NCBI RefSeq assembly: GCF_009905375.1
Contig: NW_027417172.1
Span: 62,001-126,000, forward strand
Direction: 5' to 3'
DNA: 64,000 nucleotides
Source of the DNA: Apium graveolens
Lineage: Eukaryota > Streptophyta > Magnoliopsida > Apiales > Apiaceae
Both the position numbers and the translations under genes were made by a program. Positions 15,216-63,995 of the stretch are shown piece after piece. The stretch's first letter is position 1. Each line of letters opens with the position of its first letter. A model generated the notes under the pieces. It ran no database searches. It saw nothing but the letters and a program-made list of their open reading frames with translations, and was not told where the DNA came from.

Positions 15216-15218
15216 TGT

Positions 15219-18157: not shown

Positions 18158-19164
18158 TGTTACTCCCTAACAATACAACAAGAATTACAGAAGGGGAGGT
18201 TGAATGTAATTCTGGCTCCTTTTTAAGATTTTAAAATAGTTCTAACTTGATAAATATAATAGTGTTTGATTAGCAATGGTGCGGAATAAAAGAGTGATAG
18301 AAATCAAAACACTAAGTAATAAAACACAAGCTTTTAAAACTTTCTGGTGGATTTGAAAGTATCCACCATATATATATATATATATATATAAATTGAGAAC
18401 CCTGTGAAGCTTTGAATAGCTTACAGTTGCTTTACAAGTTTGAACAAACAAATCTACAGAGAAATGCTTACAGAATATAACTTGATATGTTTTTCTGAAA
18501 ATAAGCTTGTTTAGTTAATTGTTCTACTTGCTACACTTATTTTATATATCACCAAGTTACATGACAATAAGACAAGACAATAAATAAAATTTATCTAGTC
18601 TAAAATCATGCTGCTTCATTACTCTTTCCAATATCTTTGACTGTCTTCACAATTGTATGGAAATGGTAATGATTCTTTGTTCTCTAACACTGGAATTGGG
18701 CTGCCACATTCCATTTGCAAACACCCAACGCATGTCTGTGTTGTCACTGTCAACAGCTATTTGAATTAGATCATCCGCCGAGACATTGTTGTTCATCCGC
18801 CGGAACTTTTGCTGACCATCCGTCGGGAGCCTTTTCTGTCACTTGACTCTATTTCATTTATACTGAATTATAAGACATCTTATATTTATAATTAGTCATC
18901 CTATTCTATATATCAACTAGAAGTCAACATGACTTATATACTCCTACAGAATCTACACATTGTTGTTTGCAGAAATGTGCTACAATCTTATTGTTACATA
19001 AGCTACACTCACGATAGATGTCAAATTGTCATCCGTCGGGACTATAAAATTCATCCGTCGGGACTATATTAGATCATTCATCGAGAGCTACAAAATTTTA
19101 CTAAGTTAAATCTACTAAGGTGTTTTGTTTAACTTATCATCAAGTTCACAACATATTTCTAACA
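18158..19164 (-). repeat. 3' LTR of copia A
   Basis: Minus-strand start TGTTAGAAATATGTTG at 19164, end GGGAGTAACA at 18158. A TATA box (TATATAAA, 18541-18548) separates U3 from R/U5. A long TA run lies at 18366-18391. U3 holds six or more copies of a CATCCGTCGGGA-like motif (18772, 18794, 18817, 19030, 19052, degenerate 19075). Confidence 0.93.
18541..18548 (-). promoter_or_regulatory. TATA box of the copia A 3' LTR
   Basis: Minus-strand TATATAAA within GTGATATATAAA. The same box is at 39696-39703 in the 5' LTR and at 58592-58599 in copia B, in a shared context CTTGGTGATATATAAAcCAAG-like, so it is conserved between the elements. Confidence 0.7.
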
Positions 19165-19173: not shown

Positions 19174-19403
19174 AATTTATGTCTACTGGAATTGTAGCCA
19201 TAAATTAAGAGAAACTTGATGATAACAAAACACCCTAAAAAATACAGATTAAAAAGTAGTAGATAAAACTGATAAGTGCTACAATACTTATTTGAAAATC
19301 CCTGAGAGAGGGCGGGAAGGAATAGCGGTCAGACTCAAAATTTAAAAGTGTACAAAGAGTTCTCACAATCATTTTCAAGGTGCTCCTCTAGTCTGAGCAG
19401 ATG

Positions 19404-22400
19404 ATTCTATTTCCCTGATTGTCTGGATTTCTTCCCAAGCTTCCTGTTGTTTTCTTCTATTTGATTCTGGAGTTGTCTGTGGAATTCAAGTTCATCAGCT
19501 TCAGATAGATCCAAATTTTCTTGCATTTCCAATGGAGTCCCATTGCTAGAGATACTCAATTGGTCATCCAGTCTGAGGAATCTTCTAACTCCCTTATCAT
19601 CCATGAATTCCATCAACCAATAAGGCCTCAAATGCACTCTATTTCCTGTGAAGGGAATTGATAGAGTTTTTGGTAGTGCATCTTTGGCTTTATTACTCCT
19701 TAGCTCTTTAATCTTCTTTAGAACTAATCTCCTTGCAGTCACATTAAATCCAAAGTTCTTCTTGAAGGATGAGTAGATCTTTATTAGTACATATTGGCTT
19801 TCTTAAAGAATCATGTGAAGTGGCCATGTGATTTCTTTCCCTTCCTTGTACTTAAAACCAGCCTTTCAGGAAGATGTCTGTGAGCATCAATCCCTCTTAC
19901 CTCTTCCAGTTCATCCAAGTTGAGGTTTAAATCTGAAAACTCCTTGATATCACAGATATACAAAAGATCTCCCTTGTTGACTGTAGGTTTAGATTTGGTT
20001 AGGGTCTTGGTTCCGAGAGTCACAGGCTTGACCTTCTTGGTTGCTCTTATCTTTGTTTTCTTTGGCTTGTTGAAGATAGATAAATTGAACTCAGAAATTG
20101 GCAAACTTTCCCAGTCTATTGGCTCATCCTTAGAAATTATAGGCTCACCATGAAAATTCTTAGTTGGGTCCACCTTGAATTCTTCATGTACCACTGAGGG
20201 CTTGGATGTCTGAGTTGAAGTTGTAGACTTTTTAGGAATGTAGTCCTCCATTTCCTCATCATTAAAGTCCAATTTTCTTTTGGAGTGAATCTTGTACCTG
20301 AATTTCTTTTCTGTGGAGGTTCATTTTGCATTTGTTGATCTTGAGCTTCAGTAATCACAGGTGGTTTTTCAGAAATCTCAGTTGTAGATTTGACAACTTG
20401 AAGTTTGGCCAAGATAACAGCTTGCTCCTTCTTTTGTTTGAGCTTCTTAGCATCTAAAGCAGCCTGCTTCTTTTCTGGCTTGATCCTTTCTTTTTCTTCC
20501 TTCTTAGCTTCTACAAACAGAGGGTTTCCAGCCACCACACAGATTTATTTTCCATTCCGGTAAATTTTGGCAATTCTCTTCTTTTGAGCTAAATTAGATG
20601 GATCTTTATAAAATGCAATTGACCTTGCCAACAACTTCTTTTCATCTGGCCTAGGTGTCTCAAACATAAGATCCACAGGATTTTTGTCTGAGAACTTTGA
20701 ATAGTTCCTTTTAGGCTTTAAAATCATATTAGCTTTTGGAGATTTGATACATGAAGTTTGGCCTTTTTCCAAGTTGCCTAGACTCATTTCATGCATTGAG
20801 ATATGTTTGACTTGAGAATGGTGATGAAAAGTCTTGTCTGATTTCTGTAGATGACCAAACTTCTTCTGAATGTTTGCATCAATCTTTTTCCATTTCTCAT
20901 CTAGTTCCTTCTCAACAGCTGCAACATCAAGCATTTTTGGATTTGTCTTTGAATCAAGTTTAGCAGCTGCTATTTGGATCAGATCAATGTTGTCCAATAT
21001 TGGTGGCTTTGGCAGAGTAATTTCTGGAACAATACTTGACTGATTTGAACATTTACCACATGTCCCCCTCACTGGTTGGCTCTGCTTGATTGACTTGGAT
21101 TGTTGAATCTTTTCCCCCTTTTTGTTATCATCAAGTAGAGTGGAGGTAGAAGTTTGTGCAGCCACCAGCTTTTGCAGCAACTGAGTTTGCTGTGTTTGAT
21201 ATTAGTTGGATACCTGTGATAGATGCTTCTATTGTAGTTGTCCTTGCATCCAGGGAATCCACTTTAGTGACAAGATCAGAATTCTTCCTTAGCTATCTTT
21301 TAATGTCAAGCATTGTTGCATTTGGAAGTTTAGCATCCAATCTTTCAGAGACATCCTTCTTTACTTGATCAATCTCAGTTTTGATAGAAGTGACATCTTG
21401 ATTGTTTTGAAGAGCTTGGATTTGATGTAATTGTAGAGAGTTGAGATGTGCCTGTAAGAGCTTCCTTGTGCTAGCATTTGTAGTGGATTGAAGAGCATTT
21501 TGTGTGTCTTGAATTTGATGGATGAGAGAAGTCTTGAAGTGTTGAACATCATATTCCTTGGAAAATGCCCAGGATGGCATGCCAGATCTGGAACTAGGGC
21601 CTTGTTCTCCCCCTATGTCCATTGATTTTTCATCATCATCGCCATCAACCCCAAAGAGATCTTCAGACTCACCAGTACCATAGTCAATATCATCATCAGC
21701 TCTAAATGGCATGACAGTGATGGCATCTTTTGCTCTTTGCATTGATTCAGTTGTATGCACCAAGTTAAGCATCTTTTCAGCCTTCTCATTGCCCTATCTA
21801 GCTAGAGTTTGATAAGCTGTAACATGATGAGTAAATGTCTCAGCATTCAGGGAGATAGAATATATGACAGCTTGATACTCTTGCTAAAATAGTCTCTCCC
21901 TTTCTGCATCACTGACATTCATTGACTCATTAGAAATGGTGTACACCCTTATCACTCTTGTACCTTCATTTCTCTCATGATCTCTCTTTTCTTGCATCAA
22001 GGGCTCCCCTTGGCTTCCCACCCTTACACCCTCACCTTCACCATCTAAGGTGGGACTCCTCTCACTCTCTTTTTCCAGACTGGAAGAAATAGCCTGCATG
22101 TTTTCTCTCTTTTCCTCTCCTTTTTCCTGGGAGCAACCCAGCCTCTCACTCATTTCACTCCCTTCCCTCAGTCCTAAGAGTGATTGAACAACTACTAACT
22201 CATCTACACTTGTAACAATAGTTGAAATTTCTGTGTGTGTAGAGAGTACTGACATATGAGGAACATCCATCGGGATAGTAGTTAGGTTAGCCAACGGATG
22301 ACTGTTGTTAGACACATTCGTGGGGATACAATCGCTAGCCGATGGATGAACAATATCCACCGGAATAGAAGAAATGAATGAGTTTGGAGTGGAGACTATT

Positions 22401-23988: not shown

Positions 23989-24097
23989 TGTTAAGGTAGA
24001 GAAATTTGCAGAGAGAGAGAGTATTTGCTTTGGAGAAGAAGAGAGTTAGAGCAATTGATTTGAGAATGATAAAAGAAAAGAATGAAAATGAATTTTG

Positions 24098-24212: not shown

Positions 24213-24419
24213 ATTCGTCGTGTTATACTTACAGACTGTAAGTATATCTGATGGATAATGTTCAGAGTTCCAACGGCTAAGATTGAGAAAATTCGACGGA
24301 TGAGAATAAAACAATTATCCGTCGGGCATAAAATAATCCAGAAAAGTAATTAATTTTTATTAAGAAATTCTATTCCGACGGATGATCAAACTCGATGGAT
24401 AATGAGCATCCGTCGGGAT
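24213..24419. repeat. Element-specific motif cluster upstream of the internal promoter
   Basis: Copies on both strands: ATTCGTCGTG (24213), TGATGGATAA (24249), CCAACGGCTA (24270), CGACGGATGA (24294), ATCCGTCGGG (24317), CGACGGATGA (24376), CGATGGATAA (24393) and CATCCGTCGGGA (24408). They lie about 110-315 bp upstream of the TATA box at 24098-24105, just as the LTR copies lie upstream of the LTR TATA box. Confidence 0.85.
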
Positions 24420-24513
24420 GTAAATTTGGACTTAGCCAAAATTTCATCTAATCAGAAAAAAACAATTAAGTTTTTGGCTGCATCAAAACTTGCAAGAAAA
24501 TATCTGAAATGAT

Positions 24514-27203
24514 TTAAGAATAATTGAGCATACCTAACTCACTTACCAACCTAGAAAAGGTGGATTCATCAAGTGGTTTTTTAAAGATATCTGCAAGCTG
24601 CTTTTCACTTGGAACAAAATGAAGTTCCACAAAACCATTCATCACATGTTCCCTAATGAAGTGGTACTTGATGTCTATGTGCTTTGTTCTTGAATGCTGA
24701 ACTGAATTTTTAGTGATGGCAATTGCACTTGTGTTATCACAGAAAATAGGAATTCTGTCCACTTGTAGACCATAGTCCAACAATTATTTTTTCATCCAAA
24801 AAATTTGTGCACATCAACTACCGGCAGCAATATATTCAGCTTTAGCTATAGAAGTAGAAACTGAATTTTGATTTTTACTGAACCAGGACACAAGCTTGTT
24901 CCCTAAAAATTTGCAGGTTCCTGTTATACTTTTTCTATCAATTATACAACCTGCATAATCTACGTCTGAATAACCAGTTAGGTCAAAACCAGAATCTCTA
25001 AGGTACCAAATGCCAAGTTTTGGTGTTCCCTTGAGATATCTGAAAATTCTCTTAATAGCTACTAGATGAGATTCTCTAGGATCTGCCTGAAATCTAGCAA
25101 AAAGACAGGTAGCAAATATTATATTTGGCCTACTAGCTGTTAAGTACAGAAGTGATCCAATCATGCCTCTATAACTTGAAATATCCCCAGACTTTTCAGT
25201 AGTGTTTAATTCAAGTTTAGTAGCATGGGAGTTTTTGCAGATGTGCAATCTATTAGTTTAAACTTATTTAAAAGATCATAAATGTATTTGATTTGACTAA
25301 TGAATATTCCATCAGTAACTTTCTTAACTTATAAACCAAGAAAGTAAGTTAGTTCTCCCATCATGCTCATTTCATACTTACTTTGCATTAATTTGGCAAA
25401 CTTTTTGCAAAGTTTTTCATCTGTAGAGCCAAATATAATATCATCTACATAAATTTGAACAAGTATACTAGAGCCATTAACATTTCTAAAGAATAAAGTT
25501 TTATCAACAGTACCTCTTGTGAAGTGATTTTCCAAAAGAAACTTTGATAAGGTGTCATACCAGGCTCTAGGTGCTTGCTTCAATCCATAAAGTGCTTTCA
25601 AAAGATAGTAGACATATTATGGAAAATTTGGGTCTTCAAAACCAGGAGGCTGACTGACATAGACTTCCTCCTCCAAATCTCCATTTAGAAAGGCACTTTT
25701 GACATCCATTTGATAGACCTTGAAATTGACATGGGCTGTATAGGCTAAGAAAATTCTAATGGCTTCAAGTCTTGTAACAGGAGTAAAAGTTTCATCAAAA
25801 TCTATTCCTTCTTATTGATGGTAGCCTTTATCAACCAATCTAGCTTTGTTCTTGACCACTATGCCCTTTTCATCCATCTTGTTTTTGAATACCCACTTGG
25901 TGTCAATTGGATTCTTTTCTTTAGGTCTGGGTACCAGCTTCCATACCTTGTTCCTTTCAAATTGGTTTAGCTCCTCCTGCATAGCTAAAACCTAATCAGG
26001 ATCTAACAAAGCTTCTTCTACCTTCTTTGGCTCTTCCTTAGAAAGAAAGGTGCTATATAGACATTCTTCTTGAGTTGCTTTCCTTATTTGAACTCTAGAA
26101 GATACATCACCAATGATGAGCTCAAAAGGGCGATCTCTAGTCCATTTTCTTTGTTGAGGTAGATTAGCTCTAGATGAAGAGACCTCATTGTTGTCTTGAT
26201 GTGTGAATGAGTTTTGATTGTGAGAAACTCATTCTGAGTTTGTGAATCTTTGATTTGAGATAGGGGTACTGTCTGTAGGTGATCTATTCTGACTTTTAGC
26301 TTCTCTTATTGTCCCGACGGATGATGCACTTTGTATCTCGACGGATGAAGCTGATTGTCTTCCGATGGATGAGGCAGTTTGTCTACTGACGGATGAAGCA
26401 TTTTATAACTCGATAGATGTTAAATTATGTGCCTCATTAGTTGTAGATTTTTCTGTATTATCCTTAGCCAATGTCTCTTGATCACTTTCATCATCACTGT
26501 CATCACTAACCATCTCCATATTATCAAACTTGAGGCTTTCATGGAAATCTCCATCTTGCAGTCCTTCAATCTTTTTATCATCAAACATAACATGTATGGA
26601 TTCCATAACAATGTTGGTTCTTAGATTGTAGACTCTATATGCTTTTCCAACAGCGTATTCAACAAAGATTCCTTCATCTGCTTTAGCATCAAACTTTCCA
26701 TGATGAGCAGATTGATTCCTTAAGATATAACATTTGCAGCCAAAGACATATTCTGGCTTCCTATTCTTGAATAATTGGTAGGGTGTCATGCACTTTTCTT
26801 GATTAACCAAAGATATATTCTGAGTGTAGCAGGCAGTATTCACAGCTTCTGCCCAAAAATATGTTGGTAGCTTTGATTCTTCAAGCATTGTCCTTGCAGC
26901 TTCAATAAGAGATTTGTTCTTCCTTTACACAACTCCATTTTATTGTGGAGTTCTTGTTGCAGAAAATTCATGCATAATCCCAATCTCTTCACAAAATGAT
27001 CTCATCACAGAATTCTTGAACTCAGTTCCATTGTCACTCCTGATTCTTCTTACTTTAAAGTCAGGATGATTTTTGACTTGCCTTATGTGATTGATGATGA
27101 TTTCACTAGCTTCATCTTTGGACTTTAGAAAATATGTCCAAGAGAACTTTGAGAAATCATCCACAATTACTAAGCAAAATCTTTTTCTTGAGATGGACAA
27201 CAC
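24514..27203 (-). pseudogene. Copia A pol: integrase core, reverse transcriptase and RNase H, broken
   Basis: Integrase: FCLVIVDDFSKFSWTYFLKS and RRIRSDNGTEFKNSVM (27203-26940) hold two catalytic Asp, then ARTMLEESKLPTYFWAEAVN (26888 on). After a poorly conserved linker with the 24-bp array come RT blocks: [11 protein letters not shown] near 25700, KALYGLKQAPRAWY (25601) and the catalytic IYVDDIIFGS. RNase H shows SRPNIIFATCLFARFQ, SISTAKAEYIAA-type sequence and PIFCDNTSAIAITKN, LHFVPSEKQLADIFKKPL, ending NYS at 24514. Stops near 26936, 25990, 25610, 25325, 25250 and 24790 disable it. The N-terminal part of integrase is beyond the CACTA insertion at 36984. Confidence 0.92.
26315..26420 (-). 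repeat. Exact 24-bp tandem array in the integrase-RT linker of copia A
   Basis: CGACGGATGA-like cores begin at 26315, 26339, 26363, 26387 and 26411, each exactly 24 bp after the last (CGACGGATGA, CGACGGATGA, CGATGGATGA, TGACGGATGA, CGATAGATGT). Read on the minus strand this is an 8-residue repeat of the form (S/T)ASS(V/I)xxQ. The core is the same motif as in the LTR and upstream of the internal promoter. Confidence 0.92.
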
Positions 27204-28020: not shown

Positions 28021-28318
28021 TCATAAATAAAACTAATGTTTATATACACAAACATAAAATTTTAAAATTGCACGCGCATTTGCAATACCCGTAATCCGGC
28101 CATAAATACCATTCACAACATACATACAACAAATATCAATCCGCAAAATCGACATCATCAATCCGGATAACCAGCATCTACCAATCCGCAAAACAAACAT
28201 CTACCAATCCGCAAAACCAACTCCTAAATAACTACATGCACTAGCTAGTCCACAACCATAATATCAAATGTTCAGATCTACATAACCTGTCCAAAACCAA
28301 AGTAGCACTAGAAACTGT

Positions 28319-32095: not shown

Positions 32096-32483
32096 TTATC
32101 TCGTCTTCCTTCAATCTGGACAAGCTATTAAAATTAAAACAAGTACACAGTTATGCTATAATTCCACAATATTATGCAAAATTTAAGGCTAATTATTTTG
32201 AAAAATACCTAGAATTCTAACATAACTTCAAACAAAACCTAAAGAAAAAGCAAAATAATTATAACATTAAACTTAAAGCAAAATCAAAACATTATAATGA
32301 AACAAAGTGCAAGTACAAGTCATTATAATCAGGGAGCCAAAAAGGTGCAAATACACGTAATTCTATCACATAATACAATAATTATAACTACAAAGTGTAA
32401 TCAGGGAGCCAAAAAAGAGAGTTCATTGAAATTTCATTTTAATACAACTAATTAAACAAGTACAAGTCATAATAATTATAATT

Positions 32484-35400: not shown

Positions 35401-35872
35401 TCACTAACTCCAAACCTAGCCTTCTAATTATGTAATTTGAGGACTGACTCTAGTTTAGTGCACTCGCTTCCCTCAAAAAGAGGTTGTTCCGCATCAGCAA
35501 CATACCTCTTAAAGTCATCAGATTCATTATCCCAATCTTCATCATCATTATATATTACTTTACATACATTATATGTTTCTGAAGGGGGTGTAGGCTTTTT
35601 AGCAGGACAAGTACTACCAACTGATGACTTAGTACTACTAGCAACCCCTTCTCCATGCCAAATCCAATCCAAATATCCTAAACTAAAATCAGATTCATAA
35701 AGATGACCCCTGACTATCTTGACAGTAAATTTTTTGAAGTTAACACAGCGTGCACAAGGGCACGGTATTTTTTTGGGTTTTTAGCATTTTCCTCGGCAAA
35801 TATCAAGAAATTTTCGACACCAATCTCATATTGCAAAGAATCCCTATCGGCTTTTATCCAAGACTTATCCAT
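32484..35872 (-). pseudogene. tnpD/TNP2-like: TNP2-type CACTA transposase, broken
   Basis: The cut-and-paste transposase of CACTA elements. Start MDKSWIKADRDSLQYEIGVE at 35872 and C-P-C-x-x-C are the transposase-associated domain; it is split by a frameshift in a 7-base A run (35768-35774) and resumes at MDWIWHGEG (35672). The Transposase_21 core (35345-34533) has KCHLSRR, PAWRNLDCRWPEFGSEARNI, LGLAVDGINPHN, LVMYNLPPWLCMKRKFMM and LWTINDFSGYENMPG-like blocks. RKMCYLGHRRYL follows after another frameshift at an A run (about 34547). HYLDVMHIEKNVYDNIIGTL (34354-34079) and LKSHDCHILLQQLLPV (DUF4218-type, 34082-33705) come next. The last part (33080-32484, DUF4216-type) contains VNFNRPGHKKDKFASVDQV and a stop at 32484. 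A TAG at about 35426 and further breaks complete the damage; 33081-33704 is intron or decayed coding sequence. Confidence 0.88.
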
Positions 35873-36524
35873 ATAAAACCACCTGGTATATCACTAAAAT
35901 TTCAGTCTTATAACTTATATGATTAATATTATTTACTATATTCCTACTGTTTTTTGCACCACTGTCTAATTTTAAAATAAAACAAGTAAAACATAAATAT
36001 CAAACATAAATTAGGATAACAATTGACAAAATTGTTATCAATGTTATTATACCACTAAACTAATTCATTGCTAACAGAACAACACTGAAAAACAGAGAGA
36101 TACAACTAAAATACAATTATCCTATAAGTAATTACAGATGTCAAAACATAGAGATACAATTAAGCACAATTATAATCAAACAAATGTAAAATCAAAACCA
36201 AAATTTACAAGAAACAAGATAATTACAGAGCAACATCCACCTAGTATAAATTAGGGTTTCAATTTAAAAAAACCCCAATTTTCAAATCTAGGGTTTCAAT
36301 TTAAAAAATACACAAATTTCAAATCCAGGGTTTTCAAAAATTCTAAATTAATGGTTAACATGCAGGTTAATTCAAGTTTATAAAATGAAAAAGGAGGAGA
36401 AACAAACCTAATTTGAGTGCAAATGTGAGAGTAAAAAGAGTGAGCGCAGTTGCTTTGGTTGAGTAGATTGTAGCAGCGGCGAGAGGCCAGAGAGAGTAAG
36501 ACCGAGACCACGGCAAGACTCCGG

Positions 36525-36715
36525 TGAGAGTTTGAGAGAGAGAGAGAGAGTTTGTGTATTTTTAGAGAGAGGTTGAGACATACGAGAAAGAGATGGTGAA
36601 AGACAGGGAGATAGAGTTTGGGTGGGAGAGAACCGGTGACGGGAGAGGGTCTGAGAGTTTGAGAGAGATTGACGAGGGAGAGAGAGTTTGAGAGAGAGAG
36701 AGAGCAGTTTTTAGT
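36525..36715. repeat. GA-rich low-complexity stretch at the CACTA transposase 5' flank
   Basis: Runs of gagagagag alternate with gtttgagagagat words. Read on the minus strand it is a CT-rich tract about 650-850 bp upstream of the TNP2 start, where a promoter leader would be expected. No gene is seen in 35873-36837. Confidence 0.7.
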
Positions 36716-36837
36716 TTTTGGTTTAGATTTTTTTAATTAATTTGTCTGAAGAGAGGGAGAGTGAATTCGTTAAGAGGGGAAAAATTGGCTAAGGGGGAAA
36801 GAAAGGGGGGCTTTGCTGCGTATTTTTTTTTCAAAAT

Positions 36838-36960
36838 ATAGACATCAGTTCTAAATAAAGCGATGTCTATTAACAACATAGACATCATATTTTCACGGGA
36901 TGATGTCTATAACAGTTTAGAAATCGGTGGCACATTCGACCGATGTCTAACATATGATGT
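36838..36960. repeat. CACTA subterminal repeats, right end
   Basis: The same tagacatc / cgatgtct words as at the left end, at least six copies (e.g. 36838, 36861, 36879, 36901, 36940), close to the right terminus. Confidence 0.85.
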
Positions 36961-36983: not shown

Positions 36984-37520
36984 GTGGTCCAAACAAATCC
37001 ATGTGCAATAATTGCAAAGGTTCCTCAATTATTGAATCAAGCTTCTTTCTGAATGATGTTTTGATCTGCTTTCCTTTGTGGCAGGCATCACACAATCCAT
37101 CCTTAGTAAACTCCATATGAGAAATACCTCTAACCAGTTCTTTCTTGAAAAGCTCATTCATGGTCTTGAAGTTTAGATGGGACAGTTTCTTGTGCCATAA
37201 CCAACTTTCATCTTGACTTGCTTTACTGAGAAGACAAGTTACTGATTCTGCATTTGATGAGTTGAAGTCAGCTAATTACACATTTCCTTTTCTCACTCCA
37301 GTGAGAACCACTTTGTTGCTCTTTTTGTTTGTCACAACACAGGCTTCTGATTTGAAAGTAACTGAGTTTCCCTTATCACAAAGCTGGTTGATACTCAACA
37401 AATTATGCTTGAGACCATCCACTAGGGCAACCTTTTCAATGATGACATTATCTTTTGAAATCAAGCCATATCCCACAGTATAACCTTTGCTGTCATCTCC
37501 AAAAGTAATACCAAAGCCAA
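36984..37520 (-). pseudogene. Copia A GAG-pre-integrase and integrase N-terminus; protease core missing
   Basis: Minus-strand blocks: GYGLISKDNVIIEKVALVDG, LKHNLLSINQLCDKG, then HMEFTKDGLCDACHKGKQIK and LLHMDLFGP, cut by the CACTA at 36983. The C-x-x-C of DACHKGK is the zinc-binding pair of the integrase N-terminus. Just upstream one expects the copia protease DSG site, but gag (FNFDVYRET) passes directly into RIFGFGITFGDDSKGYTVGY with no DSG; the active site appears deleted. A stop at 37527-37529 also separates them. Confidence 0.85.
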
Positions 37521-37527
37521 AGATTCT

Positions 37528-39235
37528 TTAAGTTTCCCTATACACATCAAAATTAAAGCAAGATGACTTTGGTACCCAAGTTTCCTTGGGTCCTGCCTTG
37601 TTAGCTTTCTTCTTTGGTTTCTTAGGTTTGATCTCATTTGACTTGGGAATTTCAGATTTATCCTTAGTCATTTGAGTTGGACCCTTGAAACCAGTCATTA
37701 AAACATAATTATCATGCACATTTTGATTAACAGGAAAATGCATGTTATTTGCAAACATGTTATTCCAGTCAGGCATGTTAAATGGCATTTGAGGCATACT
37801 AAATGCAATATAATAAGGATTAGGTGCAAATAGCATGTTAGCAAATTTTGCATTCATATTCTGAGTAGACATAACATTCATAGGCATGGTAGGCATGGAA
37901 GGCATGGCAGTCATTATTCCTTTCACTTAAAAACAAATTGTTTTCTTTAATTTTAGCATTTTCCTTAGTGAGGGACTTAAGTGTAACACACAGGTGATAT
38001 AATTCTGTGGACATGTCATTTATTGCATCATTACACTCAGCTTTAGATAAATGTGTTAGGTTAGTGGTGATTACCTGATTTCTTGAAGAACTTATTTTTG
38101 TTTAATCAGATTTGGCCATTAGGGCTAGATTGACATAGCTTGTTTCTTCATCTTCATCCAATCCATCTAAAGCCCAGTCATTCGCCTGTGTGATGAAAGC
38201 CCTTTCCTTCTATTTGAGCAACTCAAACTATTTTTGTTTATAATCAACAGGTTCAAACTTCTTTTTGATGGAATCAGGCTTTCTACATTCACTGGAAAAA
38301 TGACCCACCAAGCCACATTTGAAACACTTGAATTTTGACTTATCAACCATGTTTCTGTTTGGCTTAGTTGCTCCAAAATTCTTCTTAAATTTGAGCTTGG
38401 AAAACCTCATGGATAGGAATGCTAGATGTTCATCAATATCATCCATGTCATCTTGGCTCAACTGATCTTCATTTTCAGCTACCAGCCCTTAACCCTTTCT
38501 TTCACAGACCTTTGAAGTAGACTCAACAACTTCTACCTTCATCTCTTTCTCTTTATCTAACTCAGCAACCAGAGCTATGGACCCTCCTTTCTTTCTTCCT
38601 TTCTCCATCCTTTCATTTTGCTCTATTTCAAGCTCTTAGATTTTTAGGATGTCATACAGTCTCTCCAAGATGAACTCCTTGTAATCCTGTGAATTTTTCA
38701 ATGAGACTGTCATTGGCTTCCACTCATTTGGAAGAGATCTAAGGAACTTGAGGTTAGAATCTTTTGTTTGATAGACTCTTCCATGCAATTTTAGAGTATT
38801 TAGTAGCTTTTGAAATCTACTAAATATATCAGTGAGAGACTCACTATCTTCATAGTGGAAATGCTCATATTGCTGAATCAATAGCTACATCTTGTTCTCC
38901 CTTACTTGCTCAGTACCATCACAGATAATCTGTATTATGTACCAAACATCTTTAGTTGTTTTACATTTAATGATGTTGTCAAACATATCACCATCAACAC
39001 CATTGAACAAAATGTTCATGGCATTCTTATCCTTCCTGACTTGTTCAATATCAGGGTCTGACCATTCATGCCTAAGTTTTGGAACAGATGGCTCATATTC
39101 AGTTGCAGCTCTCATTGGTACATGAGGACCTCTCTCTATGCAATCCACATAGGCCTCATCTTGGGAAAGAAGATGTAGGTGCATCTTCACCTTCCATTGG
39201 TGATAATTGTCTTTGTCCAACAATGGGATCTTCAC
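37528..39235 (-). pseudogene. Copia A gag, broken
   Basis: The start reads MKIPLLDKDNYHQWKVKMHL only if a GTG at 39235 is taken; I see no good ATG, so the true start is lost or lies in another frame. Copia gag (UBN2-type) features follow: KDVWYIIQIICDGTEQVREN, LRSLPNEWKPMTVSL (38881-38636) and the CCHC knuckle CFKCGLVGHFSSEC (38461-38228). An N/M/P-rich tail (37926-37528) ends in a K-rich segment and PKETWVPKSSCFNF. Stops at about 38886, 38634, 38490 and 38226 and a frame change around 38100 break it. Confidence 0.88.
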
Positions 39236-39302
39236 ACCAGCATCCTTTTTGTTTATCTTGTTGTTTGTTGTGATCTTTATACTCTTTGTTCTTCAAGAGC
39301 TT

Positions 39303-39315
39303 GCTCTGATACCCA
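39303..39315 (-). other. Primer binding site of copia A
   Basis: Minus strand TGGGTATCAGAGC, one base after the LTR end. The standard tRNA-iMet site is TGGTATCAGAGC; here one extra G is present. It fixes the orientation. Confidence 0.8.
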
Positions 39316-39316
39316 T

Positions 39317-40319
39317 TGTTACTCCCTAAAAATACAACAAAAATTACAGAAGGGGGGGTTGAATGTAATTCTGGATCCTTTTTAAGATTTTAAAATAGTT
39401 CTAACTTGATAAATATAACAGTGTTTGATTAGCAATGGTGCGGAATAAAAGAGTGATAGAAATCAAAACACTAAGTAATAAAACACAAGCTTTTAAAACT
39501 TTCTGGTGGATTTGAAAGTATCCACCATATATATATATATATATCAATTGAGAACCCTGTGAAGCTTTGAATAGCTCACAGTTGCTTTACAAGTTTGAAC
39601 AAACAAAACTACAGAGAAATGCTTACAGAATACAGCTTGATATGTTTCTCTGAAAATAAGCTTGCTTAGTTAATTGTTCTACTTGCTACACTTGGTTTAT
39701 ATATCACCAAGTTACATGACAATAATACAAGACAATAAAATAAAATTTATCTAGTCTAAAATCATGTTGCTTCATTACTCTTTCCAATATCTTTGACTGT
39801 CTTCACAATTGTATGGAAATGGTAATGCTTTTTTGTTCTCTAATATCTGCAATTAGGCTGCCATATTCCATTTACAAACACCCAACAAATGTGATTGTGT
39901 TGGCACTGTCAACAACTATTTGAATTAGATCATCCATTGGGACATTGTTGATCATCCGTCGGGAGCTTTTGCTAACCATCCGTCGGGAGCCTTTTTTGTC
40001 ACTTGACTCTGTTTCATTTATACATAATTACAAGACATCTTATATTTACAATTAGTCATCCTATTCTATATATCAACTAGAAGTCAACATGACATATATA
40101 TTCCTACATAATCTACACATTGTTGTTTGCAGAAATGTGCTACAATCTTATTGTTACTTACACTCTCGATGGATGTCAAATTGTCATCCGTCGGGACTAT
40201 AAAGTTCATCCGTCGGGACTATGTTAGATCATTAATCGAGAGCTACAAAATTTTACTAAGTTAAATCTACTAAGGTGTTTTGTTTAACTTATCATCAAGT
40301 TCACAATATATTTCTAACA
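39317..40319 (-). repeat. 5' LTR of copia A
   Basis: Nearly the same as 18158-19164 over its length, with a shorter TA run (39525-39544) and a few small changes. The motif copies are also present (39931, 39953, 39977, 40164 inverse, 40184, 40207), with the first reading CATCCATTGGGA here against CATCCGCCGAGA in the other LTR. TATA box at 39696-39703. Flanked on the right by ATAAT. Confidence 0.93.
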
Positions 40320-40473
40320 ATAATATTATGGTTGGTAGTTGTAATCTTGTCTCATACTTTATCCTGTTTATATCCTGTTAGTTTCGGGGTTTATTATATA
40401 TTTCTACTGCTAGTATATTAGTTTATTGGTATTTTGGGTCCTCATTCCTAACCCCGAGTTTGAGGGCGTCACA
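40320..40473 (+). repeat. 3' LTR remnant of the gypsy element, right part
   Basis: It continues 17674-18157 and matches 15060-15215 (ggttggtagttgtaatcttg is shared), ending gagggcgtcaca at 40473. TTTAT follows, repeating the bases before 11433. Confidence 0.9.
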
Positions 40474-40478
40474 TTTAT

Positions 40479-45432: not shown

Positions 45433-48400
45433 TGTATAACGACTCGTATATTATTGTATTATTCAAAGATGTAATTGTTAAATAATTAAATAAATAAAAT
45501 ATGTGTATCGATTCGGTTAGCTGTGTGATGCTTTATTATTAATTAAGTGTGGTCTAGTGATATTCGAGGATTATTTGTATAATTAATTATTGAGCTGTAT
45601 TGTTTTGTTTCACTTTTAAAAGTGATTATTGAAGATTTATTTTCATAAATGTTTGAATTGTCTCTAAAATTATTTTGATGTTCTTGTAAATTTCAATATT
45701 TACTTTTTGGATTTTATAAAATTTAGAAATCAATATTTCATTAATTATTTAGCCCTAAATGATTTTCTGATTTCATTTAGGTGTAAATTCTATATTAAAT
45801 TCCAGAATACTTTCAAAATTACAAAACTCACATTTTATTAAGTTTGAAATATTTAGAGAATCTTAAAATTGTTTCGGGAATTTTTCCGATTAAAATTACC
45901 CGCAAGATTGTTCGTTAAATCATTAAATGCGGGTATGTCGTGCGCTTCAGAGATATTTTTAAAAAATATGAAATTTATATTTTATTAGTATCTAATTATT
46001 ATGAGAATTTTAAAATTAGTTTTATATTCTTTCAGGTTTTATTTAACCGCGCATTTATATTATTAAATAGCAAAATACGGATCGGAATCGGGCTTCTAGG
46101 AGGGTTAACACACGTGTCTAATTCTCAAATATTTAATTGATACGTGGCCTGTTTTTACAAACTGTAATATAAAATTTTTATTATTTTTACTAAAATATTA
46201 ATCTCTCTTCCTCCCTCATCTCAATCCCTCTTTTTCTCTCTCTCAACAGTCTCTCTCCCGTTTTTTTCTCTCCCTCCTCCCTAATCTTCTTCTGATTTCT
46301 CTATGTTCTGCTCTCATCGCGTCGTTGTTGTCTCTGTACTCGGTAATGGATGTGCCGCCTGTTTTTCCCTCTTTTGTCGGTCGTCGCCGGAATCTTTTCC
46401 GGCGAGGTGGCCTGGGGGATGTTGTGTTTGTGCGTTGTGTGTGCATCTGCGTATGTGTAGTTGTGTGTGTGCGTGAGTGGTATGTGTATGTGATGGGTTG
46501 TTGCCCTGTGTTTCCGACCAATTGTGGTCGTATTCTGTTTTCCTCTCCTTTTCCGATTCCGCGCGTGGGCGCGTGTTATTGTCTCTTACTCTGATTTGAT
46601 TATTTCTGATGTTATCATTTTTATTAATTCTGCAGTAATTATTGATTGGTTTCGTGAAATAAAATCATTGTTTTGTGCGGAAAATTATTGAATAATCGGT
46701 GGAATCGGTCTGGACACCTGAATTATTCGGGCACCGACATATTTCGCCGCCGTCAGCGATGAACGTCGGTGAGCTGATGGTGGACTGTGATGATGCGATT
46801 CTGAGTCCTAATATAACTAAATAAATAAATTTGTTTTAATGAATAGATAATTAATTTTAAAAATCGTAATTAGCTGAATGACTGTGAATTGTGATTTGTT
46901 GATTGTGGACGTCGATTATGTTTCGATGGGTAGGCCGATAAACAGAGGAGGCGCTGCCCGATTTTCGGGAAAATTAAATTAAAAAATGCGGGTATTTATC
47001 CTGTAATTATCGGGATTACCAGGCAAATGTATATAGTTATATAATTATAAATAAATATTGTACGAACCAACTTGCATATTGTGTTAAAACATTTTATAAA
47101 ATAGTTGACAACCCTACTTTACGAAATGACGGGTATGTAGGTTTTCCTAAAAAGATTATTGAATCGAGTTGTGAATGCTTGTACCCTAATTGTTATATAT
47201 ATTATGGTAATACGTATACTTACGAGTCGGAATTTGTTACCGTTCGGGTAGAATTGGTAGCAAGGATATGTCAAGCATAACTGGTTGTCTAACATAGGGT
47301 AGTTCGACTCTGTAGGTTCTAGTCTAAGGACTTGAGAATTGACGTCGAATTAAAGATAACCTAGTGATCAGTCGACAAGCTCAGCAAGGTTCCAATCGAA
47401 GGACATGAGTATTGAAGTTGAATCCAGGATAGTCTAATAGTTAGACGATAAAGCCGAGCGTCCAAATCGGTTCAAGATCAATTAGAGATAGTTGTAAATC
47501 TCTGCAAGGCAAGTACCCCTGACCATACTTTTATGGTTCAGTATATATGAATAAACTGTTGTATTATTCTCGAACAGGAACAGAAACGATTTAAGTTACG
47601 TATCCCCTGTAGTTATAATTATTTATTTAGAATCTATTTTGGGGAAAAGTAACTTCTGAAAATGCCTATCTTTAAACTATGAATTAAATTGGAAAGATTT
47701 TAAAGTGTATTATGAATAAATGGGTTAAAATGAGATAGGTATATGATACTCATGGCAACACGGATGACAGGGTGATTCCCGTGGGAACACGGATGACTTG
47801 GTATGTGATACCTGTGGCAACACGGATGACAGGGTGATTCCCGTGGCAACACGGATGACTTGGTATGTGATACCCGTGGCAACACAGATGACAGGGTGAT
47901 TCCCGTGGCAACACAGATGACTTGGTATGTGATACCCGTGGCAACACGAATGACAGGGTGATTCCCCTGGCAACACGGATGACTTGGTACGTGATACCCG
48001 TGGCAACACGGATGACAGGGTGATTCCCGTGGCAACATAGATAATTTTGGTGATTCCTGTCATGGAACAGACGAGTTAAAAATGAAAATAGCATGCTAAA
48101 GTTTAACTCTGGTATTTGCACAGTACACGACTGATGTTATTTTTTTGCAGAGCATGCTAGTTATTGATATCCAGTTTATGCATGTTTTACTTGGTTTGTA
48201 TCAAGTTATGATTATGTTCCTATAACTGTTTTATTATAATCTATTTTACTTGTTATTCATACAGTGGTACTGCTAAGCAATTGAATGCTCACCCTTGAAA
48301 AATGTTTTGTAAATATATTGCAGATACCTAGAAGACCCTTCCATCGTAGTCAGGGCAGAGTTCTAGATCCTTCCACACCAGGCTCCTTTGAGGTAGTTGT

Positions 48401-58237: not shown

Positions 58238-59262
58238 TGTTATTCCTAGTGGACTAACAATGAGATTTACAGAAGGGGGGTTGAATGTAAATCTCAAAAC
58301 TTTTTCAAGTTTTGAGCAGTTTTAAAGGCTTTGTGTTCAAGATAAACAAGTGTGTGAATTGCTTTAAGCTAATACAGACAGATATATATTTAAGCACTAA
58401 TGTAAAGAACACAACAGACCTTAAAAACTTTTCTGGTGGATTGTTGTTCCACCAGAGATGGTATTTCAGAAAATCTGTGATTCAAGATGTTGATCACAGC
58501 TGCATCCTAGTACAAACTAGATAATTTTTCTCTCAAGATTTTTCTAAACAGCACTGGAAAAATTCTCTTCTAATTACTAGCTGCTACTTGGTTTATATAT
58601 CACCAAGTGTACAAGTGAAGACAAAGATAAAAATACAATATTCAAATAAGTTCTCCACTTGTTTCTTCTCCATATTACTCAAGTACTTTGTTGACTATTG
58701 CCTCTTTGTACTAGAGTAGAACGGCTGCTTTTTCTGATGTTCCTGAAATTAGGCTTCCACATTTCAGTTATCTCTGTCAACCCATGTGCCTCTGTCTGCT
58801 GTTATAACTACCACTTATCAACTGCTATTTAACAGAACATCCGTTGAAGCCTTCATCCGTTGATGACTTTATCCGTTGATGTGTTAGCAGTTGAAGCTCT
58901 ATCCGTTGAAGCTTTAGAGACATCCGTTGAAGCTTTGTTTCTCATCCGTTGAAGGTCTTTAAGATATCCGTTGATACCACTTCATTTATACAAAATTACA
59001 AGGCATGAAATATTTACAATTGGCCTTCCTATTTGCATATCTTCTAGTAGTCAACATGACTTCTATTTTCTCTCAACTTCTAAGAATTATATCTTAAATA
59101 CAGAGATTGAAATGTGCTACAACACTAGACTTATTTCTAAGTAAAGCTGCACCATCAACGGATAGCCAAAGTGGTCTTATCCGTTGAGGCTACAAACACT
59201 AAACTTCTACTTAAGTGTTTTGTTAAACATATCATCAAACTAATGCACATATATTCCTAACA
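58238..59262 (-). repeat. 3' LTR of copia B
   Basis: Minus-strand start TGTTAGGAATATATGTG at 59262 and end CCTAGGAATAACA at 58238. The acagaagggggg..ttgaatg landmark and a TATA box (58592-58599) match copia A. U3 holds about ten motif copies: 58838, 58854, 58870, 58900, 58921, 58943, 58965, 59178, a degenerate one at 58886 and an inverse one at 59155. Confidence 0.9.
58592..58599 (-). promoter_or_regulatory. TATA box of the copia B LTR
   Basis: Minus-strand TATATAAA in CTTGGTGATATATAAACC, the same context as in copia A. The motif cluster begins about 240 bp upstream of it. Confidence 0.7.
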
Positions 59263-59271
59263 ATCTCCCCC
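59263..59271 (-). other. Polypurine tract of copia B
   Basis: GGGGGAGAT on the minus strand directly before the LTR start, identical to copia A. The 59272-59450 stretch before the ORF end is noncoding and similar in both elements. Confidence 0.88.
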
Positions 59272-59450
59272 TATTTATGTCTATAAGAATTGTAGACATA
59301 AATTTAGGGTTAACTTGATGATAACAAAACACTTAACAAATATATGAATTGAAACTATGTAGAAATTTAAAAGTGCTGCAAAAGTGTATGTACTAGGAGT
59401 TAATTGAAGATTTACAGAATTTCCAAGGGTGCTCCTCTAGTCTGAGCAAA

Positions 59451-62400
59451 TCATCTTTTTCTTCTTTGTTCCCTTGTTTTCTTTCCTAGCCCTTTGTCAT
59501 TTTCCTCAATTTGGAGTTGGAGTTGTCTGTAGAATTCAGCTTCATCTTCATCACTGATATCCAACTTAGATTGCATTTCCTTGAGAGTTTCATTGCTGGC
59601 AATCTTGAGTTGGTCTTCAAGTCTGAAAAATCTTCTGACTCCTTTATCATCTCTAAATTCCATCAACCAATGAGGTGATTTGTGGATTGTAATTCCCCTT
59701 TCTTGAATGAGTAAGGTTCTGGGCAAAGCATTGGGCTCCCTCCAAGTTTTCCTTATGTTGGCAATCTTGTTGAGAATTTCAGTCTTGGCAGTCCTGGTAA
59801 AGCCAGAATCCTTTTGTATGGCTGAAAAGACTCTGATCAAGGTAGAGTAGCCTTCATTCAGAATCCTGTAGAGAGGCCATGTTCTTTCCCCAGCTCCTTT
59901 GTATCTGAACACCAATCTCTCTGGTAGCTGTCTGTAGGCAGCTATTCCCTTTACATCCTCCAGCTCATCCAGATAGAGTTCAATGTCTGAAATTTCTTTT
60001 ATGTCACAGATGTGAACATAATCATCTTTAGAAATGGGTGGCTTAGGCTTAGGTTTTTGTTTTTGAGTGAATTTCTTAGAGGTTAGGGGAGGTGTAGATT
60101 TGGATTTTCTTTTCTGTTTCTTTGGTAGTGGAAGAGTGGTTAAAAAGGTAGGCAATTTGATGGTGTCCCAATCAATAGGTTCCTCTTTTGGGATGATTAG
60201 TTCACCATGGATGTTTATAGTGGGATCAGCAACACAAGGTTCAGGTATGGAAGGTAGTGGTTTAGATATTGATTTAGTTTCTTCAGTGTTATCTTCACTC
60301 CTTCTATGTGTCTTGGCCTTTCTTCTGTTTCCCTTCTGCCATTCCTCTCTTTCCTCCATACTCTCACCAAATATACTCCCAAAAACCTCATCTAGGTTTG
60401 CAATCTTGTCTTCACCCCTGACTTCAATTCCTTTCTCTCCTTCAACTTGACTTGACTTTAGCTGTTGTTCAAGCTTTGCTTGTGCTCTTTTGTCAGCCTT
60501 GAGTTTTTCAGCTTCTTTCTTCAACCTTTTGGTTTCTTCCCTCTTGGCCTTTGGAAATTTGGGATGTCCTTGCATCACACAGATACTCTTTCCCTCTCTA
60601 AAGATAATGGCCATGTTCATTCTTTCAACTATGTCCTTGGTCTCCTTGTGCTTTTTGATGTTAGCACCCATAACTTTGTCTTCATCAGGCTTTGGAAGAG
60701 GAAAGTCCACTTCTTTCATTTGAGCAAAGTCTAGGGGGTTCTTTATGGAGTCCTTGCTGGATCTAGTGTTGGGCTTGACAACTATAGGTTTTAGATTCTT
60801 GAAAGAAGTCTCTCCAACCTTATTCCTCCTTTCTGGCTTGTGCTCCATAATGATTGGTTCAACCTTTGTGCTATGTTTCACAGATATTGATTTATCTTGT
60901 GTTGAGCCAAACACTTGTTGCACCCTTTCATCAATTCTCCTCCTTTGCTCTTTCACTTGAATTTCAGCTGCTGCTAGCTGAATTAGGTCAATTCCATCAG
61001 GCTTTCCTTTGATTTGCATAATTGGAGAAGTAGTGATGGCATGAACTAGCACTTTAAATATCTGGATTTTTGTAGTTGGCTCTCCTTCCCCTTCCCTTTT
61101 TCTCTCCCCCTTTTTGTTATCATCAAAGAGAGGGGTCAAGCCTTGTGCCTTTGCCAGCTGCATAAGTAGACTTGTTTGAGATTGTTGGTTGTGAAGAATG
61201 ATGGCCACAGAATTTTCAATAACTTGGACTCTGTCTTCTAACTTAGCCAGCCTCTTTTCAGTATTTGAATCCTTTTTCAATCTCAACAATAAGTCCTTCA
61301 TTGTACCATAGGGCATGACTGAATCCAATTTTTCAGAATTGTAGGATTTCAAGTCAGCAATATCCTTCTTGAGTTCATCCACACTCAGATTATGTCTTAC
61401 TTGCTGCAACTTCATGAGATGCAGTGAGTCCAGGTGAGCTGTAAGGATTGCCTTGGTACCAGCATGTGAAGTTTTCTGAATGGCCTGTTGGATAGTACTG
61501 ATTTGTTTGACTAAAGAGACATTGAATTTCCGTGATGTAGACTCCTTTGTCAAGGCCCATTCAGGTAAATTTGGAATAGAACTAGGGCCTTCATCTCCCC
61601 CTAAGTTCATGCTTCCATCAAAAGAAACAGAGTCATCATCATCAGAATTTACTCCAAATTCCTCAGATGACTCACCAGCTGTAGAAGGCATCTTGTTAAT
61701 AGCAGCTTTATCCCTTTGAAGAGATTCTGTTGTATGTACTAGATGTAGTGTCTTTTCTGCCCCCTCATTGCTCTGAGCAGCTAACAACTGATAGGCTGAC
61801 ACAGGATGAGTAAAAGTGTCAGCATCCAAGGAAATGTTATCAATTACAGCTTTGTAATGTTGCTGAAATTGTCTTTCCTTTTCAGCATCATCCACAATCA
61901 TTGACTCACTAGCAATGGCTGGATCCACCCTTATATCTGCTGTACCTGCCTTTCTCTCTTTTTCTCTATATTCTTGCATCAGGGGCTCCCCCTGGCTCAC
62001 ACTCCTCACTTTCTCACCTTCACCTACTAAGGTGGTACTCCTCTCACTTACTTTTGCCATGCTGGAAGAAATAGCATGCATATTTGAGCTCTCAATCTCT
62101 CCTTTTTCCTGGGTGCAACCCAGCCTCTCACTCAAATTATCACTCCCTTCCCTCAGTCCTAAAAGTGATTGTACAGTAATCATGTCTTCTACACTTGGAA
62201 TTGTTTCAGTTGTGTGTGTAGAGACTATCAACGGATATGAAATAGCCGTTGAAGGTGACACTGATGGTATCAACGGATAACTGCTGTTAAGCTTATCCGT
62301 TGAAGAACAACCACTTGTCAACGGATGAGTGATATCCGTAGAAGAAGGAAAAGAAGTAGAAATTGAAAGTGATATAACTGTTGAATCTGTGTGGATTGAT

Positions 62401-63995
62401 TTGAGTTTTGGTGACACAGATCCTTCAATTACATCTGAAAGAATTTGTGGGTGATCCAACAAATCATCTAAAAGATGATGATCACCTGTATTTGAGTGGG
62501 GCTCCTCCCTGAGTTGTAAAGAGGGGGAATCAGGAATTGATGGGAATAACATATCCACATCCAGAGATGGTGATGAAGTGTGTGGTGATTGATGTGTGTT
62601 AATTGTGAGAGAATGGGGCTGTGACTCCACATTTGTTGGAGCCACATCAAACTGAGTTTGAGAAGGCATAGATACAGATGGATGTATCTGTGCAGTGTGT
62701 GCACCCTGTGTAGAAGATTGGGTTCTAGCCCTCTTTCTTCTAATAAAAGCTTTTGTTGGTGAGTGTTTGGCTTCTGTGTCCCTCCCTCGTTTGATCTGTG
62801 TTCCTGGTTGGGAACTATTTTCAATAGTTACATCCTTTTGGGAGAATGCAGCTAGGGATGTGTTAGTAACCTTTTCAACCACCACAGCTTTTTGAGAAAT
62901 TGTGGCTTGGCTAGCTTGGGAAACACTTATCTCTCCTTCCTTATCCTGGGGGTTTCTTTGATGTTCACCCCTCCCCTCACCACTCACACCCTGTTCACTC
63001 CCCTCAGGGTTAATGGTAGGTGTTACAACTATTGTCTTTTGAGAAACAACGGAGGTGGTTTTCTTTGTCTTTGATTTTGAAAGTTTAGTTTTGGTGACCT
63101 TGGTAGGAATCTGTTGGGGCATTGTCACAGATTCCATGGGCACACTAGAAGATAAAGAAATAGAGGGGTTGGAAGAAGTAGGAGTTGTAGAGACAATTAC
63201 CTCACTTACCTGAGGTGCATCCATGATTGGTAAATATACCAATGGTACACTGCTGTTGAGATCCATTCTCAATAAATCTGCAAGAACTCTTTTCTCTTGT
63301 GCCCAGCACTTGAGTTTGTTATTCTCATTGGTTATGACCAAACCTTCAGCAACATGGTTAGCCAATAACATAAAGAATCTAGCATAATAGATGTTATTAG
63401 GTCTATTAGCTTTGTTACCTAATCTAGTACCCAATTCTAGCATAATATAATTGCTAAAGTTAAAATACCTATCAGAAACAAGCATATAGAGCATATTAAC
63501 AAGAGATGAAGTTATGGCATCAAAATTACTAATTTTCCCAGAGAAAACCTTGATAAAGGCATCCCCAAGAAAACTTCATTCTTTCCTAAGGCCTTTTCTT
63601 TTAATACTCCCTAAACTAGCAGAGTTAAGAGAATAACCTATGGAATCTAACATGTTGGATATATCATTATCAGTGTGTGGTGTCATGGCATTGTTCTCAG
63701 GCAATTTAAAACATGCTAGTAAATCATCACAGTTAACATAGTGATTTTTACCTTTGAGAGTGAAAGAGATGGTCATATCTATGGAGTTGAACTCAACAGT
63801 TGTCCAAATCTCCTCAACTACTTCACAGTAAATCGTTGGGGCTTCCAGCATTGCATAGCTAAGTTTACAGTTTTTGATGAAGTCCATCATTTTGTGATAA
63901 TCTGAGTGGGCTTCATTCTTTGCTACCAAAGCTATGAAATTGTTCTTCTCATAGATGAACCCAGATTGAGACATAATTTTTACTACTGGTGCCAT
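59451..63995 (-). pseudogene. Giant post-pol ORF of copia B, about 1,514 codons, one internal stop
   Basis: Start MAPVVKIMSQSGFIYEKNNF at 63995 in context AACAATGGC, the same as in copia A. The N-terminal domain of about 200 residues has YCEVVEEIWTTVEFNS, KNHYVNCDDLLACFKLP and YARFFMLLANHV. A single TGA at 63573-63575 (KE*SF, where copia A has KEWS) splits codons 1-140 from the remaining frame; the longest uninterrupted part with its own ATG is 1,347 residues (63494-59451). Then come an S/T/P-rich linker (about residues 110-560) with SPTKAFIRRKRARTQ, acidic and helical segments likely to form coiled coils (about 650-850), K-rich segments, and a C-terminal domain with HWLMEFRDDKGVRRFFRLED and FYRQLQLQIEENDKG. 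No clear membrane span or signal peptide is seen. Function unknown. Called 'env-like' by position in SIRE literature, but the sequence does not show envelope features. Confidence 0.88.
62229..62344. repeat. Element-specific motif cluster inside the copia B post-pol ORF
   Basis: Six copies on both strands: CAACGGATA (62229), GCCGTTGAAG (62245), CAACGGATA (62271), TATCCGTTGAAG (62294), CAACGGATGA (62319) and TATCCGTAGAAG (62333). They lie at about codons 550-589, in an S/T-rich linker, and match in place the copia A cluster at 22264-22370. Confidence 0.88.

Follow-up and report, generated by a model that had tools for sequence, protein, structure and literature searches.

The long terminal repeats (LTRs) of 13 Sireviruses contain an element-specific repeated motif (RM), with one consensus for each element (Bousios et al., 2010; PMC2829016). 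According to the accessible parts of that paper, RMs are palindromes of 10-20 bp, with a CGG-CCG core in 12 of the 13 cases, and nine env-bearing Sireviruses also have them in the linker domain, almost always ahead of ENV, a position in which they were suggested to serve env expression. What RMs do was not settled by the authors who discovered them, in the text available to us, and our literature searches returned no answer. Here, we describe a 64,000-nucleotide stretch of the Apium graveolens genome (contig NW_027417172.1, positions 62,001 to 126,000; hereafter the window) that carries two elements, A and B, whose sequence features assign them to two related families of envelope-class Sireviruses (Ty1/copia) in this Apiaceae genome. 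In the sampled copies, each family has one version of a short box, and the arrays of one element nearly always contain the same version. We favour the view, to which we give a probability of a little over one half (about 0.55), that these boxes are RM boxes of a non-palindromic variant and are recognised by a nuclear factor with sequence specificity, probably one of the host.

The box of A reads ATCCGTCGR (C-type), with the full form (C/T)ATCCGTCG(G/A), and the box of B reads (T/C)ATCCGTTGA (T-type), as derived from 337 words in 20 A-like stretches and 27 in B, each chosen by the frame ATCC.T.G. The unit of both families is a box of ~9 bp, ATCCGTYGR. A previous sequence-only reading of the window had reported such words in both elements; they are indeed present at the coordinates it gave, and the families do differ, but the contrast it proposed (TCGGGA against TTGAAG) gives way to one of ATCCGTCG(G/A) against ATCCGTTGA. 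The B box is non-palindromic, the A box is a near palindrome, and CGG...CCG arises from inverted pairs only. The MYB-type sequence CCGTTG is found in B and not in A, and CCGAC in A and not in B.

Each word is enriched in its own element over shuffled sequence. When 11-mers with at most two mismatches were compared with dinucleotide shuffles (200, or 20 for the window outside the elements), the 3'LTR of A was found to contain five A-words (shuffle mean 0.02, maximum 1) and that of B ten B-words (mean 0.20, maximum 2), with six B-words in the B env linker (mean 0.04, maximum 1) and two A-words in its decayed counterpart in A (mean 0.04, maximum 1). The window outside both elements is not enriched: its 2 A-words compare with 3.4 expected, and its 10 B-words with 8.3. 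A de novo ranking of 8-mers places the motif first in B and in the whole of A and second to a TA run in the A 3'LTR; in A env alone, it does not come first. Genome-wide (3.33 Gb in 4849 contigs), there are 43,297 exact copies of the C 12-mer CATCCGTCGGGA and 69,103 of the T 12-mer CATCCGTTGAAG, against 11 and 95 for the reversed control words. A single-base variant of the T word, CATCAGTTGAAG, has 1,600 copies against 494 for its control, and its listed places are scattered.

The arrays occupy four matching places in A and B, namely U3 of the LTR, the linker between integrase (INT) and reverse transcriptase (RT) in pol, the gap between pol and env, and the linker of the env-like open reading frame (ORF) (Table 1). 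Those in U3 and the env linker were part of the earlier description, whereas it lacked the two A arrays in the pol-env gap and the INT-RT linker. Only the 3'LTR and most of the env-like ORF of B are visible in the window, the rest lying beyond its edge; the next 3 kb of the contig contain T-type arrays of B in the gap and the INT-RT linker, the latter with a 24-bp period like that of A. Spacings within arrays range from 15 to 24 bp, and some arrays are tandem. In U3, the distance from the arrays to a presumed TATA box downstream of them is ~240-590 bp in B and 220-540 bp in A. In the env linker, successive sites point in alternating directions; they are collinear in A, in 11 other A-like copies and in B, barring deletions in some. 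Being collinear and homologous and yet different in type, these sites were therefore changed in place, in agreement with the claim that the same place of the linker carries a differing word. An additional array of T boxes is located in gag in all five T elements examined there (L112, L116, L120, L124 and L128), encoding the peptide ..LSTDVESTDDE.YPLK..HPLK..; this T-family peptide, when searched against A, gave no match.

In the sampled copies, the box version is locked between the LTR and the interior of an element. To count it, we used the word ATCC[GA]T[CT]G[AG], excluding more decayed copies, in two samples, both drawn from the initial 6 Mb of a single contig. The C sample consisted of 20 stretches from C-word places, of which the 15 with a coding match were counted and the five without one excluded; its coverage is uneven, as not every region is present in all 15 stretches (env in 11). 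The T sample consisted of pieces of eight elements from T-word places, with gag fetched in five, and the gap and pol pieces of element E1 were off target and contribute 0:0. LTR counts are selected by construction, since the elements were picked by the word, whereas internal counts are not. In the C elements, the ratio of C- to T-type words was 102:4 internally (env 37:1, gap 45:2, INT-RT linker 20:1) and 67:8 in the LTR. In the T elements, it was 1:139 internally (env 1:45, gap 0:46, INT-RT linker 0:28, gag 0:20 in five elements) and 0:79 in the LTR. The types in LTR and ORF thus co-vary across the sampled copies, and neither of the results that the sequence-only reading had named as fatal to its proposal (counts no higher than in shuffled sequence, or LTR and ORF types that vary independently) was obtained in this sample. 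The rows of the sample are not independent, because T elements E2-E7 are closely alike and the linkers of C stretches L088 and L092 are near-identical. The 3.33-Gb assembly has three places at which an exact T 11-mer comes no more than 30 bp after an exact C 11-mer, counted in C-then-T order only. Within the first 100 listed places for each word, close pairs are C-C in 17 cases, T-T in 36 and mixed in none, and among listed places a T word lies within 3 kb of 1 of 93 C words and a C word within 3 kb of 2 of 100 T words.

Gene models and env relatives add to this picture. Models P0240 and P0033 (pol and part of env) have SVE/SVD repeats, with env at 80% and 65% to B versus 57% and 40% to A, and P0037 has SVG, with env at 64-69% to the C-like P0001, 51-63% to A and 45-52% to B; P0041 (pol) and P0008 (env), from equal-sized contigs, are both T-like. 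Among 33 env relatives, seven are C-like by their reverse sites, three T-like, one mixed and two, from Daucus, of the form STD/HQL, the remainder comprising 14 Heracleum linkers that are eroded or shortened and six sequences that are truncated there or have no linker. Some C-like relatives, such as P0001 and P0014, have mixed forward sites. In the two Daucus proteins (P0009 and P0021), three of three reverse env-linker sites read HQL in place of HPL and the forward sites read STD. Judged from these peptides alone, Daucus may have a third box type, ATCAGTTGA; a matching 12-mer forms no arrays among the places listed in the Apium genome.

Selection acts on the DNA of the boxes and not on the peptide. 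In the env frame of B, all three ACG codons (among 96 Thr) and all three CCG codons (among 76 Pro) are located inside boxes, and the six observed copies were reached in 0 of 1000 synonymous-codon shuffles of the ORF (1 or 2 of 1000 for the decayed A linker). The argument that peptide repeats do not explain the copies is borne out to this extent; it does not extend to the INT-RT linker, where a peptide repeat coexists with the boxes because the copies are tandem and in frame.

A second line of evidence comes from CpG. The B ORF contains 9 CpG, against 170 predicted from its base content, and six of the nine are in boxes. In B overall, 16 of 20 CpG lie in motif words, leaving an observed/expected ratio (o/e) of 0.019 outside them, and in the own DNA of A, 43 of 66 do so (o/e outside 0.058); the stretch nested in A has 200 CpG against 290 expected (o/e 0.69). 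Coding parts (59451-63572, 19380-23990, 24561-26250, 36985-39300; L088-L108) show an o/e of 0.01-0.11, coding pieces of further copies (8-13 copies each) one of 0.015-0.108, and the DNA surrounding A or nested in it one of ~0.67-0.73. The gap and INT-RT linker of A reach an o/e of ~1, versus 0.01-0.08 for the coding parts of A and B, at a G+C content of just 0.30-0.40. Since CpG is concentrated in the boxes of otherwise CpG-poor elements, the boxes have been kept against whatever removed the other CpG. A loss of CpG from A by decay since its insertion was rejected as an explanation: just 3 of 52 differences between its LTRs are CpG-related and the nested stretch retains most of its CpG, so that, in our reading, the desert predates the insertion. 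As a full account of the desert, deamination at all methylated contexts was likewise rejected, because CHG sites are depleted little or not at all (CAG o/e 0.79-0.85 and CTG 0.61-0.78 in the elements, versus 0.77-0.98 and 0.76-0.77 in the flanks). Literature searches found no paper on CpG depletion in plant copia elements, the matches being, by title, on insects.

Family-specific words in matching places point to a DNA-binding factor that distinguishes the families. In the favoured scenario, the boxes would be bound by a nuclear factor that recognises their sequence, most probably a transcription factor of the host. Lying upstream of the presumed TATA box, the arrays in U3 would act as an enhancer, and those inside the element (in pol, between pol and env, in env and, in the T family, in gag) may provide auxiliary enhancer or internal-promoter sites for env. 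Spacings of 15-24 bp, dense direct arrays and the use of either strand are as expected of enhancer sites. The C/T switch would then mark the change to a factor or paralogue of other specificity, for which every site had to convert.

Several points weigh against this scenario. We know of no single plant factor that fits both box versions, and the coding arrays lie kilobases away from the LTR. The LTRs also offer more than one candidate position for the promoter. A TATA box in a context common to A and B stands downstream of the U3 arrays, yet a second TATA-like string, TATAAATGAA (LTR ~277-305; near 18862 and 58990), is also common to both, lies between both U3 arrays and sits in the sole well-aligned LTR block of A versus B. 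The placement of the arrays upstream of the promoter is thus presumptive, because the LTRs contain other TATA-like strings, including this one. Moreover, an A-like copy (L100, 505-900) has C-type env, gap and pol arrays, yet a mixed LTR with four C- and four T-type words, and is possibly an intermediate or a recombinant. Finally, box types and clades coincide: because the C/T difference follows two clades, the switch represents one or very few independent events. Co-evolution with a factor is thus suggested by the type lock rather than observed, as the types are two clades, the T copies read are close kin and both samples stem from the first 6 Mb of a single contig.

Other explanations deserve consideration. 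If different inherited words had simply spread by tandem duplication and slippage, without any recognising factor, tandem arrays with 15-24-bp periods and types that follow clades would be expected. We nevertheless consider ordinary descent unlikely, given that homologous env-linker sites changed in place, that the boxes retain CpG in CpG-free surroundings and use codons otherwise unused, and that counts exceed their controls thousands-fold (C) or hundreds-fold (T), an excess to which element copy number contributes. That the peptide difference between STD/HPL and PTD/HPS was selected, and not the DNA, is highly improbable: in the env and INT-RT linkers, the boxes do lie in frame and give rise to recurring peptides, but the same words also occur outside coding DNA, in U3 and the gap, they are found on both strands, and the codon usage and synonymous shuffles of the B ORF described above speak for the DNA. 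Alternating boxes might instead serve stem-loops, with roles in packaging, translation control or as a small-RNA source, as proposed for the palindromes of maize Sireviruses, which the accessible text of two studies describes as small-RNA hotspots with predicted structure (PMC5311732, PMC10760457). We find this quite unlikely. Six arrays were folded as single strands, the pol-env gap lying outside this set; the B env linker and the inverted pair of the B LTR folded above background (z-scores in Table 1), but the other four showed nothing unusual (z -0.28 for array 1 of B U3, -1.07 for array 2 of A U3, -1.18 for the env linker of A and +0.74 for its INT-RT linker). Complementarity would, in addition, suffice for a hairpin, leaving one fixed word in direct arrays unneeded. 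Because these four arrays fold normally, hairpins are predicted to be a secondary property at most.

A recogniser encoded by the element itself, for instance by the env-like ORF, could bind its own boxes and remove silencing, with co-evolution of box and protein separating the families. Such a logic is documented for VANC21 and VANC6 (PMC5735166, PMC10398659, in the portions accessible to us), and it would fit short family motifs that changed in step, arrays along the element and a near-exclusive type lock. Its application to A and B appears doubtful, however, and an element-encoded recogniser, as envisaged by the sequence-only reading, is unsupported so far. The env-like ORF has no recognised DNA-binding domain, confident fold or fold match: Pfam searches with it and its relatives gave matches far below the cut-offs only, the model of its C-terminal part, of modest confidence (predicted local distance difference test score, pLDDT, 68), has no PDB or viral match at E<=0.001, and that of its N-terminal part is poor (pLDDT 46). 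Furthermore, VANC21 motifs are described as mainly non-coding and of the same orientation (PMC5735166, accessible text), whereas many of the boxes here are coding and alternate, and the 14 Heracleum relatives, compared at the protein level, retain the ORF with eroded or shortened env-linker peptides. A protein search of IMG/VR confirmed no relatives, and stretches with motif pairs in this database (1 for C, 78 for T) were set aside as chance or unrelated on the basis of G+C and of motif and polypurine tract (PPT) counts. We are similarly doubtful that private arrays of 9-bp CpG boxes address each family along its length (LTR, pol and env, and gag in one family) in elements otherwise purged of CpG, and that a trans-factor, perhaps element-encoded and methylation-sensitive, keeps its own family active and ignores the sister; were this true, specificity would change jointly in the factor and in about 30 boxes or more per element.

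The assignment of A and B to the Sireviruses is based on their order of domains and their LTR junctions. INT precedes RT, as in copia elements, and the env-like ORF follows pol; A carries INT and RT (SH3_retrovirus match, tblastn maps) together with a decayed env-like ORF. A Sirevirus PPT followed by AT/TG is found at the 3'LTR, exact in B (AGGGGGAG) and one base off in A (TGGGGGAG), and the Sirevirus primer-binding site (PBS) TATCAGAGC follows the 5'LTR at the A junction. Sireviruses carry several PPT copies grouped beside the 3'LTR; B has three more copies of AGGGGGAG, 1.8-2.7 kb inside the ORF, and A has one extra PPT copy. Both elements are oriented on the minus strand. The N-terminal part of the B env-like ORF reaches 63995 but is broken near 63573; its named relatives belong to Apium, Heracleum and Daucus. 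A piece of this plant env-like ORF is also encoded by a 1044-bp contig (P0198) whose record bears the label Klebsiella pneumoniae, probably through contamination. Within A, ~9.6 kb (27300-36900) have no match to the proteins of six relatives tried and look, from their sequence, like a nested insertion. A itself is apparently inserted in one copy of an LTR-like repeat (17674-18157, 40312-40474), another copy of which lies at 14584-15216. Outside A and B, a CpG-rich 62-bp tandem repeat (47738-48037; 4.8 copies, 93% matches) contains ATCCGTGTTGCCACGG dyads.

Table 1. Box arrays and structural features of elements A and B (window coordinates).
Feature	Position	Strand	Remarks
C-type array 1, A U3	18772..18829		3 copies, 22-23-bp spacing
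C-type array 2, A U3	19009..19086		one inverted decayed copy, then direct copies
C-type array, A env-like ORF linker	22249..22370		alternating orientation, decayed
C-type array, A pol-env gap	24214..24421 (approx.)		CpG o/e of whole gap 1.0
C-type array, A INT-RT linker of pol	26312..26420		24-bp period, in frame, SSVG-type peptide
T-type array 1, B U3	58838..58977		8 copies, one of them AGCAGTTGAAG
T-type inverted pair, B U3	59153..59190		single strand folds as hairpin, z -4.16
T-type array, B env-like ORF	62226..62344		6 copies, alternating orientation; three hairpins, z -5.56
3'LTR of A	18158..19164	-	93.5% identity to 39315-40321; TGGGGGAG-AT/TG junction
5'LTR of A	39315..40321	-	arrays 39932-39989 and 40164-40240; PBS TATCAGAGC adjoining
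3'LTR of B	58238..59262	-	AGGGGGAG-AT/TG junction; low end set by similarity to A LTR end
Presumed TATA box, A LTR	18542..18548	-	LTR position 619, GGTGATATATAAA context
Presumed TATA box, B LTR	58593..58599	-	LTR position 668, GGTGATATATAAA context as in A
Env-like post-pol ORF of B	59451..63572	-	open 1374 codons, own stop

Collectively, two related families of a single genome display two box versions at homologous sites, together amounting to >110,000 exact 12-mers. The coding arrays make it possible to tell selection on DNA from selection on protein, and a switch in factor specificity becomes directly testable with two oligonucleotides. The elements are also a natural example of how, in a lineage of retrotransposons, CpG-bearing sites were retained and nearly every other CpG was lost.

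VANDALs are DNA transposons. Their VANC motifs resemble the boxes in being short, distributed along the element, different between related families and synchronously changed (PMC5735166, PMC10398659, accessible parts). As in that system, the motif is dense in its own family and rare in the sister, as seen from the type lock in our sample and the few C-then-T pairs. The differences lie in the VANDAL motifs being described there as mainly non-coding tandem repeats of the same orientation with an element-encoded recogniser, whereas many of the boxes are coding and occur in both orientations. The VANC system, which the sequence-only reading had named as the closest known logic, may thus be kept as the best analogy for that logic, but not as the family in which to class these boxes, for which Sirevirus RMs are the closer precedent (PMC2829016, accessible text). 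The palindromes in maize Sirevirus LTRs share with the boxes their clustering in the cis-regulatory part of the LTR, their high variability and their ability to fold, but the sequence is another one (CACCGGACNNNGTCCGGTG), and the accessible text on maize does not mention internal coding arrays (PMC5311732, PMC10760457).

Like the RMs, as far as they are described in the available sections of Bousios et al. (2010), the boxes constitute an element-specific, CCG-containing motif with at least eight copies per element, found in the LTR and the env region. RM boxes define CpG islands, and the boxes may likewise form the CpG-rich spots of their element, albeit at the low G+C content given above for the A gap and INT-RT linker. 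RMs comprise at least eight repeats, mostly in the upper half of the LTR; B has ten words (at most two mismatches) in U3 at LTR ~80-430, and the 3'LTR of A has five, together with decayed ones, and more in its internal arrays. Copies upstream of ENV are present as the pol-env gap arrays of A, B and the sampled copies. We class the boxes as a variant of the RM because the B unit, unlike the RMs, is not a palindrome. Moreover, arrays are also located here in the coding DNA of gag and pol, as well as far inside the env ORF, and the comparison is between homologous sites of two related families in one genome, whereas the RMs came from divergent elements of many species. Coding arrays in pol or gag, a change of boxes in place and a CpG desert were not found in the literature covered, which comprised open-licence papers by title and beginning of abstract and the accessible part of PMC2829016. 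Relative to these described systems, the apparently new features are therefore the non-palindromic box, the coding arrays, the in-place switch at homologous sites and the CpG desert in which the boxes are retained.

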